Source: Actinophytocola algeriensis
Lineage (GTDB): Bacteria; Actinomycetota; Actinomycetes; Mycobacteriales; Pseudonocardiaceae
NCBI RefSeq assembly: GCF_014203735.1
Contig: NZ_JACHJQ010000001.1
Span: 545,269-609,268, forward strand
DNA: 64,000 nucleotides
Direction of reading: 5' to 3'
The notes below the pieces were generated by a model. That model saw only the letters and a program-made list of their open reading frames with translations. It ran no database searches and was not told the origin of the DNA. Positions 31,894 to 40,893 of the stretch are shown here, piece after piece; the stretch's first letter is position 1, and the number at the start of each line of letters is the position of its first letter. The translations under genes and the position numbers were made by a program.

Positions 31894-31969
31894 TGGTGTG
31901 GCTTCGCTCGTTGGCTGGTCGGGTTCGGTTCTGCACCCACCCGGCCGACGAAAGTGGACACAGCGCTAG
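31890..31969. mobile_element. Degraded copy of the gtggacacagc MITE
   Basis: The right end (acccacccggccgacgaaag, then tggacacagcgctag) matches the right end of the full element at 16894-17252 almost base for base. The left end near TTAG (31890-31893) is poorly conserved and most of the interior is missing. TTAG supplies the stop of the PHP gene, and CTAG (31966-31969) supplies the stop of the convergent proline-rich gene. Confidence 0.65.
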
Positions 31970-32457
31970 CGGTGCCTCGCGGCTCTTGCCGCTGCCGCGC
32001 CTGCGGCCATCACGACGATCAGCACTGTCAGGCCCCAGCGGCGTTTCTCCTCCGTCGCCTCCTGCATGGACGGTACGGGGGCTGCCTCGGGATTGTCCTG
32101 GATGTACAACGGTTTTCGGGTAGTCGGGGTGACCGACGAGACCGGGGGGATCGGTGGCGGTGGGACGACCGCGACGGTCGTGGTCGTCGTGGGGGCCGGG
32201 GTGGCCCGTGGCAGGGGCGGCACGGTGGTCGGGGGCGGTTGTGCCGTCGCGGTGTCCGTGGGCGCCGGGGGTGGTGGCGCGGTCGCGGTTCCCGTGGTCG
32301 GTGGGGCTGGTGGGACGGTGGCGGTGTTGGTGCCCGTGACCGTCGGCGGTGGGGCCGGTGGGTGCCACGGCGGTGGGGGTGGCGGCCGGCCGGGTAACAG
32401 GCACACGGTGACGGTGATCAGCAGCGAGACGTGGACCTTGATCAGGCAGTTCGTCAT
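31966..32457 (-). CDS. Proline/threonine-rich membrane protein, end of encapsulin/MEP operon
   Basis: 163 residues from ATG 32457, overlapping the DUF4239 stop (ATGA). One hydrophobic helix near the N-terminus (VHVSLLITVTVCLLPG), a region of about 90 residues made of Pro, Thr and Ala runs, and a second helix near the C-terminus (WGLTVLIVVMAAGAAAA). The Pro/Thr stretch is probably a wall-spanning linker. Its C-terminus stops at a MITE boundary, so it may have lost or gained residues there. Function unknown. Confidence 0.75.
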   Translation of the reverse strand: MTNCLIKVHVSLLITVTVCLLPGRPPPPPPWHPPAPPPTVTGTNTATVPPAPPTTGTATAPPPPAPTDTATAQPPPTTVPPLPRATPAPTTTTTVAVVPPPPIPPVSSVTPTTRKPLYIQDNPEAAPVPSMQEATEEKRRWGLTVLIVVMAAGAAAARAARHR

Positions 32458-33209
32458 CTCAGTCGCTCCAGGGCCGACTCGAACGCCGCCGGGCCCACCT
32501 GTGCGCCACCGCCGTACGGGTTCTGCAGCTGCTGTGTCGCGAACAGCAGCAGCGTCATGGTGCCGGCCAGGATCGACACGATGAGGATGTGCGTCGCCGG
32601 TTTGGGGCCGCCGAACAGCAGTGGCAGCGCCACGGCCATGATCGCGCCGGCCACCAGTGCGAACCACACCACCGAGTTCACCCCGCCGCCGGTGGCCGCG
32701 TTGAGCCGTTCCTGTCGCTGCTGGTAGACGCTCCACAGCTGGTCGGAGGCCTCGTTCTTCTGGTCGACGGTCCACTCGTCGGTCGCGGGCGCGGCGGCCA
32801 CCTCGGCACGCAGCCGCTCCAGCGTCGACCAGCCCGCGTCGTCGATGTCCCCGCCCTCGCTCATCCTCGGCCACTCGCGTTCGATCACCTCCCGCACGTA
32901 CGTCCGTGCCTCGGTGGTCACGCCCTCGCTGTCCGGCAGCTCCCGCGCCGCCCACACGGCCGCGACGAGGCTGTCCGCCTCCTTGTACGAGCCGTCCTCC
33001 GCGGCGGTCGTGCCGTCGAACAGCGAGATCAGCACGAACGCCAGCAGCACCGCCTGCAGCCCGCCGACCAGCGTGAACACCTGGCCGGCGGCCTCGTTGT
33101 TGTCGACGACGCCCTGTGTCTCACCGATCCGCCGCACGAGGTAGGCGAGCCCGCCCGCGACGAGCCCGACCCCCAGTACCCATAACAGCCCGACCACATA
33201 AATGCTCAC
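32454..33209 (-). CDS. DUF4239 membrane protein
   Basis: 251 residues from GTG 33209, overlapping the ispG stop by four bases. Two N-terminal helices (about 4-26 and 45-66, the latter [18 protein letters not shown]) and two C-terminal ones ([34 protein letters not shown]) flank a charged helical domain of about 110 residues. The layout is that of DUF4239. The function is unknown, and its tight coupling to isoprenoid genes is the main clue. Confidence 0.85.
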
Positions 33210-34303
33210 GACCAGTCCCTCTTCATCGCCTCGTCGAGCAGCGCTTCGACGATCTGGCTCTCCGGGACTGTCCGGACCACCTCGCCTCGCACGAAGATCT
33301 GCCCCTTGCCGTTCCCCGACGACACCCCGAGGTCCGCCTCCCGCGCCTCACCCGGCCCGTTCACGACGCACCCCATCACCGCCACCCGCAGCGGTGCCTC
33401 GAACCCGTCGAACGCGGCGGTCACCTGCTCCGCCAGGCGGTACACGTCCACCTGCGCCCGCCCGCACGACGGGCACGACACGATCTCGAGCCGCCTCGGC
33501 CGCAGGCCCAGCGACTCCAGAATGGACAGTCCGACCTTCACCTCTTCCACCGGTGGCGCGGAAAGTGACACCCGGATGGTGTCGCCGATGCCCTCGGCGA
33601 GCAGCACCCCGAACGCCACCGCCGACTTCACCGTGCCCTGGAACCGCGGTCCCGCCTCGGTGACGCCGAGGTGCAGCGGGTAGTCGCAGCGCGCGGCGAG
33701 CCGCCGGTACGCGGCGATCACGGTCACCGGGTCGTGGTGCTTCACCGACAGCTTGAGGTCGGTGAACCCGTGTTCCTCGAACAGCGAGCACTCCCACAGC
33801 GCCGACTCCACCAGCGCTTCCGGGGTCGCCCTGCCGTACTTGGACAGCAGCCGCGCGTCGAGCGAGCCGGCGTTCACCCCGATGCGGATCGAGACCCCCG
33901 CAGCGCTTGCCGCGCGGGCGATCTCGGCGACCCGGTCGTCGAACTTCCTGATGTTGCCCGGGTTCACGCGCACGGCCGCGCAGCCCGCGTCGATCGCGGC
34001 GAACACGTACCTCGGCTGGAAGTGGATGTCCGCGATGACCGGGATCGGCGACTTCTTCGCGATGGCGGCGAGCGCGTCCGCGTCGTCCTGCGACGGCACC
34101 GCGACCCGCACGATCTGGCAGCCCGCCGCGGTCAGCTCCGCGATCTGCCGCAGCGTCGCGTCGACGTCCGCGGTCAGCGTGGTCGTCATCGACTGCACCG
34201 ACACCGGCGCGTCGCCACCCACGGGCACGTCGCCGACCATGAGCCGCCGGGACCGCCGCCGCCTGCTGCCGACCGTCGGCACGCCCAGGTCCACCGCGGT
34301 CAC
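33206..34303 (-). CDS. ispG: 4-hydroxy-3-methylbut-2-enyl diphosphate synthase
   Basis: 365 residues from GTG 34303, overlapping the dxs stop. IspG features: [61 protein letters not shown], and the 4Fe-4S ligands in [11 protein letters not shown] and [11 protein letters not shown]. It reduces MEcPP to HMBPP in the MEP pathway. It is slightly shorter than usual actinobacterial IspG, which fits a specialised second copy; that the genome has another copy is not shown here. Confidence 0.95.
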
Positions 34304-36027
34304 TCCACCACCGCCTTCAGCCGTGCGAGCCGCTTGAGCACGGTCCCGGCGATGCCGTTCCCGTCGAGGCCGTGCGCGCGCAGGATCTCCTCGCGCGACG
34401 CGTGGGGCAGGAAGCCGGCGGGCAGCGCGAACGTCGCCACGCAGGTGCGTTCCCCGGTCGCGGCGAGTGCCTGCGCGAGCCGCGCACCCAGTGCGCCGGT
34501 GGCCGTGGTGTCCTCGACCGCGAGCACCAGCGGGTACCCGGCCGCGAGCCGCAGCAGCGCCGGGTGCAGTGGCATCGTCCACTGTGGATCGACCACGGTC
34601 ACGGGCACGTCGTGGCGCGCCAGCTCGTCGGCCGCCGCGAGGCACGCGCCCGCCAGCGGGCCGACCGCGACCAGCAGCACGGCCGCACCGGGCTCTTCTC
34701 GCAGCACGTCGTAGCCGTCCGCCCGGCGCACCGCGGGGATGTCCGGTCCGGCACTCGCCTTCGGGTAGCGCAGGACGGTGGGCGCGTCCTGGACGGACAC
34801 CGCTTCGCGCAGGAGCTCCCGCAGCGACGCCGGGTCGCGGGGTGCGGCGAGGCGCAGGCCGGGGACGACCGGCAGCACCGACGCGTCCCACATGCCGTGG
34901 TGGCTCGCGCCGTCCGGTCCGGTCACACCCGCGCGGTCGAGCACGAACGTGACGCCGAGCCGGTGCAGCGCCACGTCCATCAGCACCTGGTCGAACGCGC
35001 GGGACAGGAACGTGGCGTAGATGGCGACGACCGGGTGCAGCCCGCCCATCGCGAGCCCGGCCGCGGAGGTGACCGCGTGCTGCTCGGCGATGCCGACGTC
35101 GAACGTCCGCGCCGGGAACCGCGCGGCGAACCCGCCGAGCCCGGCGGGCAGCGCCATCGCCGCGGTCAGGCACACCACGTCCGGCCGTTCCTCGCCGATC
35201 GCGACGATGCTGTCGGCGAACACCGAGGTCCAGGACCGCCCGCCCGCCGAGGTCGCCGGGCCCACCGCGTGCATGCGGTCCGCCTCGTCCTCCTCGGCGG
35301 GTGGGTAGCCCTTCCCCTTCTCGGTGCGGCAGTGCACGACCACCGGCCGCCCCAGCGCGGCCGCGGACCGGAACGCCTGCTCCAGCGCGACGACGTCGTG
35401 CCCGTCGACCGGGCCGACGTAGGAGAAACCCAGTGCGGTGAACAGGTTCGCGCCGCTCGACCCGGACCGCAGCGCCGCGAGGTGCTCGGCGAGACCGCCG
35501 ACGGTCGGCGCGTAGGAGCGGCCGTTGTCGTTGAGCACCACCACGACCGGCCGCGACGGGGCGGCGCCGAGGTTGTTTAGCGCCTCCCACGCCATGCCAC
35601 CGGTGAGCGCGCCGTCGCCGATGACCGCGACCACGCGCCGGTCGTAGGAGCCCGTGACGGCGAACGACTTCGCGAGTCCGTCCGCATAGGACAGCGCGGT
35701 GGAGGCGTGCGAGTTCTCGATCACGTCGTGCGGTGACTCGGTGCGCGACGGGTAGCCCGATGTGCCGCCCGCCTGGCGCAGGTCGTCGAGCCCGCGGCCG
35801 GTCAGCAGCTTGTGGACGTAGGCCTGGTGGCCGGTGTCGAACAGGAGCACGTCGGCCGGTGAGCGGAACACGCGGTGCAGCGCGATGGTCAGCTCCACCG
35901 CGCCGAGGTTCGGCCCGAGGTGCCCGCCCGCGTGGCGGACCTTGTCGACGAGCTCGGCACGCAGTTCGGCGGCGAGCACCAGCAGGTCCGGGGTGGACAT
36001 CCGGCGGAGCGTGGCGAGGTCGGTCAT
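34300..36027 (-). CDS. dxs: 1-deoxy-D-xylulose-5-phosphate synthase
   Basis: 575 residues from ATG 36027, overlapping the ispH stop (ATGA). TPP and active-site motifs: [84 protein letters not shown]. It condenses pyruvate and glyceraldehyde 3-phosphate, the entry step of the MEP pathway. Housekeeping Dxs is usually about 620-640 residues, so this is a shortened form; the N-terminus [23 protein letters not shown] begins later than usual. Confidence 0.95.
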
Positions 36028-36959
36028 GACGGTCGCACCGAGGACGGCAGCGTGAACGTGATGTCCTCGGTGGCCGTGCGGTGCTCCAGCACGCAAACCG
36101 GGCCGAGCGCGGCGACGACCTCGTCGACCAGCCCCGGTGGCGCGGAGGCACCCGCGGTGACCCCGACCGTGCGGACGTCGTCGAGCCATTCCGGTCTGAT
36201 GTCGCCCGCGTCGTCGATGAGGTACGCCGTCGTGCCCGCGCGCTGTGCCAGCTCCACGAGCCGCACCGAGTTCGACGAGTTCGCCGAGCCGACCACCAGC
36301 ACCAGGTCGGCCCGCTCGGCCACCGTGGACAGTGCCTGCTGGCGGTTGGTGGTGGCGTAGCAGATGTCGTCGGACGCGGGGCCCTTGAGGAACGGGAAGC
36401 GGGACCGCAGTACGCCGAGGATCTCCGTGGTCTCGTCGACGGCGAGGGTGGTCTGGGTCAGGTAGGAGACGCGTTCCGGGTCGGGCACGGTGACCGTCCA
36501 TGCCTGCGCGACGTCCTCGACGAGGATCGTGTCGTCGGGTGCCTCGCCGAGGGTGCCCTCGACCTCCTCGTGGCCCGCGTGCCCGATGAGCAGGATGGTG
36601 TCACCGCGGGCGGCGAACCGGCGGGCCTCGGCGTGGACCTTGGTGACCAGCGGGCACGTCGCGTCGAGGACGCGCAGGTGCCGCCGCCCCGCCTCGGTGC
36701 GCACGGCAGGGGACACGCCGTGCGCGGAGAACACGACCGTCGCGCCGGGCGGCACCTGCGCGAGCTCGTCGACGAACACCGCGCCCCGCCTCTCGAGATC
36801 GGCCACCACGTGCACGTTGTGGACGATCTGCTTGCGCACGTACACGGGCTGCCCGCGCTGTGTGAGCGCGTGCTCGACGATCTCGATGGCCCGCTCGACG
36901 CCCGCGCAGAACGACCGCGGCGCGGCGAGCAGAACCGTGTGGGGAGCCGGGGCGGTCAT
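36024..36959 (-). CDS. ispH: 4-hydroxy-3-methylbut-2-enyl diphosphate reductase
   Basis: 311 residues. The three conserved cysteines are in [13 protein letters not shown] (Cys18), [11 protein letters not shown] and [21 protein letters not shown] and [15 protein letters not shown] are also typical. It converts HMBPP to IPP and DMAPP, the last MEP step. It starts 66 bp after the polyprenyl synthase stop and overlaps dxs, so it belongs to the encapsulin-linked operon. Confidence 0.95.
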
Positions 36960-37025
36960 GCGATCTCCTGTTCGTGCTGACAGCGGCGGGGAAACGCGGC
37001 GGGGACCGGCCTGTTGGCAGGTGGG

Positions 37026-38051
37026 TCAGTGGGTCCGGTGGGTCAGCAGGTGGGCCAGGTCGGTCAGTTCCGCCGTCGCCGGGGCCGGTGGCAGGTGTTC
37101 CAGCCGGGCCAGTGCCTGCGCCATCAGCCCGTCGGCCTGTGCCTGGCCCCACGCGCGGCCACCGGCACGATCGATCAGCTCCGCCGCCGTGCGCAGCTCC
37201 CGGTCGGTCAGCGACTCCGTGCCCGCGTACAGGGCCGCCAGCTCACCGCCCTCCGGGGTGCCCGACGCCAGCGTGTACACCACCGGGAGCGACTTCTTGC
37301 GGTTGCGCAGGTCGGAGAACGCCGGCTTGCCCGTGGTCCGCTCGTCGCCCCAGATGCCGAGCAGGTCGTCCACGTGCTGGAACGCCAGCCCGAGCTGCTC
37401 ACCGAACACCCGCAGGTGGCGGACCTGCTCCGCCGACCCGCCACCGAACGACGCGCCCAGCGCACACGCGGCACCCATCAGCGCCGCCGTCTTGCCACTG
37501 GCCATGCGCTCGCACTCCGCGATGTCCACAGTGGAGCGTCGCTCGAACTCCACGTCCGCGCACTGCCCGGCCACCAGCTCCTGCACGGCCGCGCTCAGCG
37601 TCCGCATCCCCGGGCCTGCCGCCGGGTGACCGCTCGCCGCCAGCACGTCCAGCGCCAGCGTCAGCAACGCGTCCCCGGCCAGGATGGCCGCGCCGATGCC
37701 GAACACGCTCCACACCGTCGGCCGGTGCCGCCTGGTCAGGTCGCCGTCCATCACGTCGTCGTGCAGCAGCGAGAAGTTGTGCACCAGCTCGACCGCCACC
37801 CCGGCAGGCACCGCCTCCCTCGGCGACCCGCCGACCAGCGCCGCGGACAGCAGTGTCAGCGTCGGCCGCACCGCCTTGCCGCCCGCTGAGGTCCGCACGC
37901 CGTGCTGGTCCCACCACCCGAGGTGGTAACCGGCGATGCGGTGCATCGACGCCGGTAACGTCTCGACCGCCGCCCGCAGCGCCGGGTCGACCAGTTCCCG
38001 GCTCCACGCAAGCGTTTGCTCCGTGCTGTGCACACGCTCCGGTGCGACCAT
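37026..38051 (-). CDS. Polyprenyl diphosphate synthase, probable encapsulin cargo
   Basis: 341 residues from ATG 38051, one base from the stop of the upstream shell gene. First Asp-rich motif LLHDDVMDGDLTRRHRP; second FQHVDDLLGIWGDE (DDxxG, as in other encapsulin-linked polyprenyl transferases). Phe five residues before the first motif points to a short-chain product (FPP or GGPP). GKAVRPTLTLL and GKTAALMGAACALG are also family motifs. The N-terminal extension is short (about 10 residues), and no clear targeting peptide is visible, so cargo status is inferred from gene order. Confidence 0.85.
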   Translation of the reverse strand: MVAPERVHSTEQTLAWSRELVDPALRAAVETLPASMHRIAGYHLGWWDQHGVRTSAGGKAVRPTLTLLSAALVGGSPREAVPAGVAVELVHNFSLLHDDVMDGDLTRRHRPTVWSVFGIGAAILAGDALLTLALDVLAASGHPAAGPGMRTLSAAVQELVAGQCADVEFERRSTVDIAECERMASGKTAALMGAACALGASFGGGSAEQVRHLRVFGEQLGLAFQHVDDLLGIWGDERTTGKPAFSDLRNRKKSLPVVYTLASGTPEGGELAALYAGTESLTDRELRTAAELIDRAGGRAWGQAQADGLMAQALARLEHLPPAPATAELTDLAHLLTHRTH

Positions 38052-38052
38052 G

Positions 38053-39453
38053 TCAGCGCCCCAGCTCGACGTTCTCCAGCACCCCGAGCGCGTCGGGCAC
38101 CAGCACCGCCGCCGAGAAGTACACGCTGACCAGGTACGACAGGATCGCCTTGTCGTCGATGCCCATGAACCGCACGTTCATGCTCGGGGCCACCTCGTCG
38201 TCGATGTTCACGGTGTGCAGCCCGATGACGCCCTGGTCCTCGACCCCGGTGCGCATCACGATGATCGACGTCACGTCGCCCTCGGTGATCGGGATCTTGT
38301 CGCACGGCAGGATCGGCACCCCACGCCACGTCTGCACGGTCGACCCCTCGAACTCCACGTTCGCCGGGTAGATCCCGCGTTTCGTGCACTCGCGGCGGAA
38401 CGCGGCGATCGCACGCGGGTGCGCGAGGAAGAACTTCGACTTCCTGCGCCGCGAGAGCAGCTCGTCGAGGTCGTCCGGGGTCGGCGGGCCGGACCGGGTG
38501 AAGATCCGCTGCGACAGGTCCGCGTTGTGCAGCAGCCCGTACGACGGGTTGTTGACGAGCTCGTGTTCCTGCCGCTCACGCAGCGCCTCGGTGGTCAGCC
38601 GCAGCTGCTCCTCGGTCTGGTTCATCGGGTCGTTGTAGAGGTCGGCGACCCTGGTGTGGACCCGCAGCAGCGTCTGCGCGACGTCCAGTTCGTACTCGCG
38701 GGGCGTCTGCTCGTAGTCGGCGAACGTGCCGGGCAGCTCGGCCTCGCCGCTGTGCCCGGAGGACAGCTCGATCGCCGCCTCACCGGCCCGGTTCTGCGCC
38801 TTCGACGGCCGGGCCAGCGCGGCGCGGATGTGCTCGCGCAGCGCGTCGGACTGGCCGTTCATCTGCTGGAACGACTGCCCAGCCAGGACCAGCACGGTGA
38901 CCGGGGTGATGGCCTTGACGCTGAACGCCCACTCCCCGCGTTCGCCGCTCAGCAGCTCGCTGCCGAAGTGGTCACCGTCGGCGAGGACGTCCAGCACCTG
39001 GTCCTCGTCGTACCTGCCAGGTGTCAGCTTGTTCGCTTTGCCGTGTGCCAGAAGGAAGATCTCGTCACGCGGCTGACCGGCCCGGACGATCAGGTCGCCC
39101 GGCCCGTACTCCCGCTGCTCGAACCGGTTCGCGAGCGCGCCGAGCGCCTGCTCGTCGGTGAAGTCACGCAGCAGCGGCAGTTCCCGCAGCTCGGCGGGCA
39201 CGACGCGGATCGCGGTGCCCTCGCTGACGAACGAGAGCCGCCCGTCGCCGATCGCGTAGGACAGCCTGCGGTTCACGCGGTAGGTGCCGCCCGCGATGTC
39301 CACCCACGGCAGCATCTTCAGCAGCCACCGGCTGGTGATGCCGCGCATCTGCGGCTTGGTCTTGGTCGTGGTGGTGAGGTTGCGCGCCGCCTCGGTCGAC
39401 AGGCTGCGCCGCACCGTGGCCTCGATCCGGACGTCGGTCTCCACTGTGGACAC
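38053..39453 (-). CDS. Family 2B encapsulin shell protein, copy A
   Basis: 466 residues from GTG 39453. Residues 85-212 form a cyclic-nucleotide-binding-like domain ([44 protein letters not shown]), inserted between an N-terminal arm (about 20-75) and a long C-terminal part ([58 protein letters not shown]). There is no helix-turn-helix, so it is not a Crp-type regulator; the layout is that of HK97-type Family 2B encapsulins. The usual phosphate-binding Arg-x-Ala of cAMP pockets is absent (GEWAFSVKA). Confidence 0.88.
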
Positions 39454-39456
39454 GGC

Positions 39457-40878
39457 TCAGCCTTCCCGTCCCAGCTCGACGTTCTCGAGGATGCCGAGCG
39501 CGTCCGGCACCAGCACCGCGCACGAGTAGTACGCGCTGACCAGGTAGGACATGATCGCCTGCTCGTTGATGTTCATGAACCGCACCGAGAGGCTCGGCTG
39601 GTACTCGTCGGGGATGCCGGTCTGGTGCAGGCCGACGACACCCTGCCGTTCCTCGCCGGTGCGCATGAGGAGGACCGAGCTGGTCCGGTGTTCGGAGACG
39701 CCGATCTTGTTGCACGGGAAGATCGGCACACCGCGCCATGCCGGCACCCGGTTGCCGTTGACGTCGATCGCGTCCGGGTAGAGGCCGCGGCGGCTGCACT
39801 CGCGCCCGAACGCGGCGATCGTGCGCGGGTGTGCGAGGAAGAAGGCGGGGTTCTTCCACACGGTCGCGAGCAGCTCGTCGAAGTCGTCCGGCGTCGGCGG
39901 GCCGGACCGGGTGTGGATGCGCTGCGACAGGTCCGCGTTGTGCAGCAGCCCGAAGTCCGGGTTGTTGATCATCTCGTGTTCCTGGCGCTCGCGCAGCGCC
40001 TCGATGGTCAGCCGCAGCTGCTGCTCGACCTGGTCCATCGGCTCGTTGTAGAGGTCGGACACGCGGGTGTGGACCCGCAGCACGGTCTGCGCGACCGACA
40101 GCTCGTACTCCCTCGGGGCCAGCTCGTAGTCCACGAACGTGCCGGGCAGCGCGGCCTCGCCGACGTGGCCGGACGCCAGCTCGATCGCCGCCTCGCCGTG
40201 CGGGTTCTGCGCGGCGGCCTTGCCGCTCTGGAACGCCGCGATCTGCTCCCGCAACGCCGCCGAGCGGCCGAGCAGTTCGTCGAACGCGCGCTGCGGCAGC
40301 ATCAGCACCGTGCACGAGGTGGCTGCTTTGACGCTGTACTCCCACATGCTCTGCGGGTCCACCAGCGACTCGTCGCCGAAGTGGTCGCCGTTCGCGAGCG
40401 TGTCGAGCACCGTTTCGTCGCCGTACCGGCCCGGCCCGACCTTGGTGACCTTGCCGTGCGCGATGAGGAACGCCTCGTTCGACTCGTGCCCGAATTCCAC
40501 GATGGTGTCGCCCGCGGCGAATTCCCGTTGCTCGAACCCGTTGGCCAGCGCGGCGAGCACGTCGGGGTCGGTGAACCCGCGGAACAACGGCAGCTCGCCG
40601 AGTTCGGCCGGGATCACCCGGATTTCCGGTCCGTCGCTCGTGAACGTGACGCGGCCGTCACCGACCGCGTAGGACAGGCGCCGGTTCACCCGGTAGGTGC
40701 CGCCGGACACCTGTGTCCACGGCAGCATTCTCAGCAGCCACCGCGACGAGACACCCTGCATCTGGGGGACGGACTTCTTGGTCGTGGCCAGGTTCCGAGC
40801 CGCGGCGGTCGCCAGGCTCTGCTGCGGCCGCTCACCGTCCGCGCCGACACCAGGTGCCACCGGTTCCGTCACCGTCAC
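39457..40878 (-). CDS. Family 2B encapsulin shell protein, copy B
   Basis: 473 residues from GTG 40878, with TTG 40893 and GTG 40890/40887 as alternative starts. It aligns along its whole length with copy A, which begins 3 bp downstream: N-arm [27 protein letters not shown], the nucleotide-binding-like insert ([33 protein letters not shown]) and the HK97-like C-terminal part ending [21 protein letters not shown]. The insert again lacks the phosphate-binding Arg (SMWEYSVKA). Two adjacent paralogous shells suggest a mixed shell. It is the first gene of the operon. Confidence 0.88.
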
Positions 40879-40893
40879 AACGCACACCACCAA

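Follow-up and report, generated by a model that had tools for sequence, protein, structure and literature searches.

A Family 2B encapsulin operon with polyprenyl transferase and MEP-pathway paralogues in Actinophytocola algeriensis: possible shell and precursor module of a geosmin-type terpene nanocompartment

Introduction

Among described systems, the polyprenyl transferase (PT)-type Family 2B encapsulin operons come closest to the locus analysed here, an eight-gene operon in a 64-kb stretch (the window; C1:545269-609268) of the 9.73-Mb genome of Actinophytocola algeriensis. PT-type operons encode Family 2B shells, frequently as a pair, with the PT as putative cargo, and it has already been published that precursor genes are often encoded in such systems (Giessen & Savage 2021, PMC8346489). 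The present operon shares this plan; it differs in that three paralogues of the methylerythritol phosphate (MEP) pathway form a coupled block of separate lineages, whereas the main text of that paper is without dxs, ispG and ispH. A further relative is Sl-Enc1/Sl-Enc2 of Streptomyces lydicus (PMC12407261), in which Enc1 is likewise followed by Enc2 and the diagnostic motif 1 of each shell (TVWK for Enc1, RRRK for Enc2) is identical to that found here. However, that system is of a putative xylulose-kinase type, whereas PT and MEP genes follow the shells in A. algeriensis.

Geosmin biosynthesis offers another likeness. In cyanobacteria and Deltaproteobacteria, the geosmin synthase gene geoA is accompanied by two cyclic nucleotide-binding (cnb) genes (PMC7251104), and in myxobacteria encapsulins belong to the geosmin clusters (PMC12224551). 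The synthase in these clusters stands either beside encapsulins or beside cnb genes whose products, of 471 and 469 aa, would be 2B shells. By contrast, the cyclase gene of A. algeriensis is separated from the shells, which adjoin PT and MEP genes on a different contig. None of the titles listed in a literature search dealt with MEP paralogues next to encapsulins or with cyclase cargo encoded at a distance; supplements and most subscription papers fell outside its scope, so absence is not proved. What we add to the printed record is a sole, unlinked PF19086 cyclase with two GLGTSAAR cargo-type motifs and a family-wide co-occurrence of cyclase and shell.

Results

Two Family 2B shell proteins

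The two shell genes, Enc1 (39457..40893, minus strand; start ambiguous, TTG 40893 or GTG 40878) and Enc2 (38053..39453, minus strand), scored 776 and 750 bits on the Family 2B shell model NF041163 (cut-off 400), and the SrpI-like HK97-type domain PF19307 matched their products with 467 and 448 bits. In both proteins a PF00027 match (residues 123-210 and 114-198, respectively) precedes the PF19307 match, a cyclic-nucleotide-binding-like insert of the kind that the initial annotation names for Family 2B encapsulins in general; this insert domain of the shells has been published as not binding cyclic nucleotides. PDB chains of 470-477 residues (9bje, 9bix, 9bhu) matched both shells over their full length, with best E values of 1e-206 and 1e-183. 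The PDB labels these chains Crp/Fnr-type or nucleotide-binding proteins; they are probably the solved Family 2B shells. Enc1 and Enc2 are 64% identical over 453 positions, and their translations contain motif 1 in its two forms, TVWK in Enc1 and RRRK in Enc2. The two-component gene order was also found, with Enc1 upstream, Enc2 next and the putative cargo PT adjoining Enc2. A profile search of the genome revealed no further 2B shell above the cut-off, the three other matches reaching 26-44 bits. The profile, motif and PDB matches thus uphold the dual Family 2B shell of the initial annotation, with a predicted HK97 fold; the pair would assemble into a two-component shell.

A geosmin-synthase-like cyclase on another contig

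As first noted, the 64-kb window contains no PF19086 terpene cyclase. In the whole genome, PF19086 found two domains of a single open frame (C3 ~845974-848109, on a contig distinct from the operon's). The encoded protein has 717 aa from its likely Met and carries GPAGLGTSAAR between the domains and TGLGTSAAR near the C-terminus. A GPTGLGTSAAR-type motif of geosmin-synthase-like cyclases, located at these same two places, has been described as a possible targeting sequence (PMC8346489). The C3 protein is geosmin-synthase-like and the only PF19086 cyclase of the genome, and the product, which the initial annotation had left open, is narrowed by this single candidate with its cargo-type motifs.

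We then compared the distribution of shell and cyclase in 90 genomes of the family Pseudonocardiaceae, counting as shell a 2B match with E <= 1e-60 and as cyclase an NF041168-type match with E <= 1e-100, which leaves shorter cyclases mostly uncounted. Shells were present in 56 genomes and cyclases in 52; every one of the 52 cyclase genomes has a shell, and none of the 34 shell-less genomes has a cyclase (Fisher p = 1e-20, a statistic that ignores relatedness). In 31 of the 52, the A. algeriensis genome included, no cyclase lay <20 kb from a shell on the same contig; fragmented assemblies (e.g. G413, G487) may hide linkage. Of 46 genera, 24 had both genes in all sampled members and 17 had neither. 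Among the other 5, shell and cyclase vary together in g162 and g173, and in the remaining three a shell is found with no cyclase. Squalene-hopene cyclase, used as a control, showed no such link (23/56 shell versus 13/34 shell-less genomes). Finally, 30 cyclase loci out of the 52 genomes were read for the motif: a GLGTSAAR-type sequence was found in 12 of 16 cyclases of genomes that lack one near a shell, and in 13 of the 14 others.

Paralogues of three MEP-pathway enzymes

The PT gene is followed by ispH (36024..36959; PF02401, LYTB, 313 bits), dxs (34300..36027, 575 aa; TIGR00204, 496 bits, cut-off 466) and ispG (33206..34303; PF04551, GcpE, 469 bits), all on the minus strand and each identified in addition by alignment to its solved counterpart and, for ispH and ispG, by trees. 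Second copies are present elsewhere in the genome (dxs C1:1200779, ispG C7:398084, ispH C11:223581), to which the operon proteins are 54% (Dxs), 79% (IspG) and 59% (IspH) identical. Aligned with solved IspH, the operon protein retains all three cysteines as well as the NSSNS stretch; IspG likewise keeps the CPSC and GC...GE stretches of its solved counterpart, and Dxs the GDG...NN stretch. Operon Dxs is without ~40 profile positions (~193-231) that housekeeping Dxs has. The three enzymes cover 3 of the 7 MEP steps; the other four are presumably supplied by housekeeping genes, for which no search was made. The claim that the nanocompartment has its own supply of isopentenyl and dimethylallyl diphosphate (IPP/DMAPP) was therefore overstated, and what stands of it is a precursor block that recurs beside a two-component shell.

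Trees were built from quick searches, with SH-aLRT support only; rows with no PT in the fetched flank are termed 'other'. In the IspH tree, a 100% branch separates 19 'other' rows from the operon rows, and three 'other' rows (L194, L201, L249) share the operon side. L194 (G291 C19) is probably PT-linked, because it lies near a weaker PT match in G291. The IspG tree shows the same split, with 99% on both sides and one 'other' row, L230 (G291 C19), on the operon side. In the Dxs tree the operon copies are mostly apart, with some operon rows unresolved and the operon Dxs of L073 grouping with unlinked L227 and L228; two rows that are not operon Dxs were kept in and pull the midpoint root. They come from genes lying before the shells at L165 and L171 and share 31% and 29% tblastn identity, respectively, with Dxs of the window. 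Operon IspH and IspG thus form lineages apart from the housekeeping copies, and Dxs nearly so.

Variants of these genes occur at other loci. The IspH proteins of L030, L032, L042, L049, L056, L063, L078 and L081 have an apparent conserved N-terminal domain of ~85-105 residues (consensus VLVADEL...CPAA.L.EGELRRRGV), which is absent from the window's IspH and is possibly a loading domain. An origin as a duplicated IspH half-domain was rejected (profile comparison probability 0.4 on hhalign's 0-100 scale). Genome G400 has an extra dxs-ispG-ispH group (C5:627846-631880), with a very long IspH branch, on the same contig as its PT locus and distant from it. At L157 (G019), a PT-ispH-dxs-ispG cluster, in which Dxs fits the profile without the loop gap, has no shell detected nearby.

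Recurrence of the precursor block beside two-shell loci

We collected 525 pattern matches to PT in genome contigs, 462 of which encode a relative, and kept the best 80 of the 462. Full flanks, meaning more than 7 kb of sequence before PT and 6.5 kb after it, were available for 61 of the 80, and 19 were set aside. Locus counts rest on tblastn with the window proteins, because gene-prediction clustering missed some shells; shells too divergent for these queries could escape. Among the 47 full-flank loci with two shells, ispH was present at 27, dxs at 11, ispG at 10 and all three at 7. All three were found at 1 of 6 one-shell loci and at 0 of 7 loci without a shell, and L059, with three shell matches, has ispH. 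By the thresholds used, ispH accompanies downstream dxs or ispG at every nearest locus.

In a class-wide draw, 51 of 394 genomes had a PT above the NF041169 cut-off; the 50 besides our own were used, 43 of them with full flanks. MEP genes were found at 0 of 31 one-shell loci, compared with ispH at 4 (in L171 just a 56-residue piece), dxs at 2 and ispG at 1 of 7 two-shell loci; L157 alone of five loci with no shell found carries all three. L168 and L169, one-shell loci excluded because their flanks are short, do have ispH, and their second shell could be off-contig, because the contigs end within the PT-adjacent shell. The MEP genes of the operon are thus extra copies of a kind that recurs beside two-shell PT encapsulins: they are neither the only copies in the genome nor unconserved beside encapsulins.

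Some loci unite all components. Shell, cyclase, PT and ispH occur together at 10 of the 130 fetched PT loci, 7 of the nearest 80 (L010, L018, L020, L055, L068, L073, L079) and 3 of the 50 (L164, L169, L174). The order at L073 and L174 is Enc1-terpene cyclase-Enc2-PT-ispH-dxs-ispG.

The polyprenyl transferase

The PT gene (37026..38051, minus strand) encodes a trans-polyprenyl diphosphate synthase of the encapsulin-associated type, scoring 471.3 bits on NF041169 (cut-off 450); PF00348 was also matched. Encapsulin-associated PTs are characterised by a disordered N-terminal domain 50-100 residues long; in the present PT, residues 1-53 precede the PF00348 match, yet residues 11-341 align to the NF041169 model. 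The first Asp-rich region reads FSLLHDDVMDGD. Residues -5/-4 of the first Asp-rich motif were F-S in 13 and H-S in 3 of 16 PTs with a cyclase nearby, and F-S in 76, F-T in 36 and Y-S in 2 of 114 PTs without one. As a guide to chain length these two residues were discarded, since they fail to tell the products apart.

Operon layout and neighbouring genes

The eight genes, Enc1-Enc2-PT-ispH-dxs-ispG-bestrophin-like-Pro-rich, occupy 31966..40893 on the minus strand. Gaps of 3 bp (Enc1-Enc2), 1 bp (Enc2-PT) and 66 bp (PT-ispH) are followed by four-base overlaps at ispH/dxs (36024-36027), dxs/ispG (34300-34303), ispG/bestrophin-like (33206-33209) and bestrophin-like/Pro-rich (32454-32457), so that strand, gaps and overlaps are all as first described. 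Among the nearest PT relatives, which place the genome close to Actinophytocola (Pseudonocardiaceae), L005-L007 share the order Enc1-Enc2-PT-ispH, continued by dxs-ispG-bestrophin-like in L005 and L006 and by the bestrophin-like gene alone in L007. The arrangement is not chance, given that other genomes repeat this gene order. A promoter and terminator scan was uninformative (0 promoter-like sites; 3 terminator-like sites versus 2.4 expected).

The bestrophin-like/DUF4239 gene (32454..33209, minus strand) matched PF14023 with 134 bits. Homologues >35% identical, one just a 78-residue piece, occur at 25 of the 80 nearest PT loci; most of them lie upstream of Enc1 or PT in divergent orientation. 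At five Amycolatopsis loci (L054, L058, L071, L074, L076), PT adjoins a bestrophin-like gene and there are no shells. Gene 8 (31966..32457, minus strand) encodes a Pro/Thr-rich protein without family matches; by eye, its N-terminus is hydrophobic and a segment at the C-terminal end looks membrane-like. Its C-terminal TEEKRRW segment is also found in a DUF6923 Pro-rich protein near a Saccharopolyspora bestrophin-like gene, a likeness that is weak because of low complexity. Pro-rich proteins with TEEKRRW resembling gene 8 occur at 13 loci (e.g. L028, L033, L039, L041, L061), in most of them beside the bestrophin-like gene, on the opposite strand and upstream of Enc1; the one representative tested had DUF6923. 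Genes of nickel-pincer cofactor type lie near Saccharopolyspora PT operons (L027, L028, L033, L036, L039, L041, L046, L053, L060, L061). One representative is a Ni_insertion protein by Pfam, and two of these neighbours are presumably LarE and LarB.

Discussion

On balance, and with modest confidence, we read the operon as one half of a geosmin-type terpene nanocompartment, supplying shell and precursors, with the cyclase encoded elsewhere. Gene content, paralogy, recurrence, the co-occurrence of cyclase and shell and the cyclase motif are the basis of this model. The operon would yield an Enc1/Enc2 shell, a PT dedicated to it and, likewise dedicated, MEP paralogues that cover the pathway's first step and its final two. 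These paralogues would raise local IPP/DMAPP, which PT, placed inside or outside the shell as the MEP enzymes may also be, would convert to a short-chain prenyl diphosphate, with C15 as the most likely length in this role. Its consumer would be the C3 cyclase, loaded through its GLGTSAAR-type motifs and presumably making geosmin, so that shell and pathway would act as a single functional module over two loci. Collectively, these observations suggest a shell-based terpene pathway with genes split between distant sites.

Several findings weigh against this model. The cyclase is lacking from operon and window, and by the queries used one lies nearby at only 16 of the 130 fetched PT loci. Its best NCBIfam match is NF041168 at 1108 bits, and because this is below the cut-off of 1200 it is not filed under that family; matches above the cut-off occur in 9 of the 90 family genomes. 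The co-occurrence carries no correction for phylogeny, and four of the 56 shell genomes are without cyclase, two with fragmentary shell matches (G419, G449) and two with full shells (G456, G481). By the pattern used, 4 of the 16 unlinked cyclases are without the motif, and 20 of the 47 nearest full-flank two-shell loci are without a MEP gene. In PT, position -5 relative to the first Asp-rich motif is Phe and there is no insertion, which by a chain-length rule for such enzymes would allow C20 rather than C15.

It is unlikely, in our estimate, that PT is instead the main cargo, giving a linear or later-modified prenyl compound, with the MEP paralogues serving PT and the distant cyclase unrelated. 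PT does immediately succeed Enc2, an order also published for PT-type systems (PMC8346489, PMC12407261), and loci with shells (70/80 nearest, 45/50 class-draw) outnumber those with a cyclase near PT (11/80 and 5/50). However, cyclase and shell co-occur even when unlinked, several related loci place the cyclase between Enc1 and Enc2 or after PT, and PT has no evident long extra N-terminal tail, given its alignment to the family model from residue 11.

The MEP genes could also encode cytosolic paralogues that are co-regulated but not specifically tied to the shell, and that increase overall isoprenoid flux or take over from damaged Fe-S enzymes. In favour of this, the Fe-S enzymes IspG and IspH are sensitive to oxygen, just three of seven steps are present, L157 has its cluster without a shell and the G400 group lies far from PT. 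We nevertheless regard this as decidedly improbable, as the operon copies group in lineages of their own, not as young duplications of the housekeeping genes in the respective host, and the class-draw MEP genes go with two-shell loci. Least probable, and very much so, is that the shell acts jointly with the bestrophin-like and Pro-rich proteins in some process at the membrane or cell surface: the bestrophin-like gene recurs at 25 of the nearest 80 PT loci, including the five shell-less ones, but at 0 of 50 class-draw loci at the same threshold, and bestrophin-like proteins are common in actinobacteria.

Beyond this genome, the split nanocompartment leads to a wider proposal that we put forward as possible only and somewhat short of an even chance: that geosmin-type cyclases of Pseudonocardiaceae depend on a Family 2B shell, adjacent or not, with a mixed shell, PT and MEP paralogues at one locus and a cyclase loaded by GLGTSAAR from a distant one. 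A volatile-terpene route would then be organised round a single shell. Encapsulin cargo is usually inferred from a neighbouring gene. If many Family 2B shells have their real cargo encoded at a distant site, operon-based assignment misses it, and 'PT-only' systems may be terpene-cyclase systems. The operon also offers a case in which to ask what producers of volatile terpenes gain from a protein shell and from second copies of precursor enzymes next to it.

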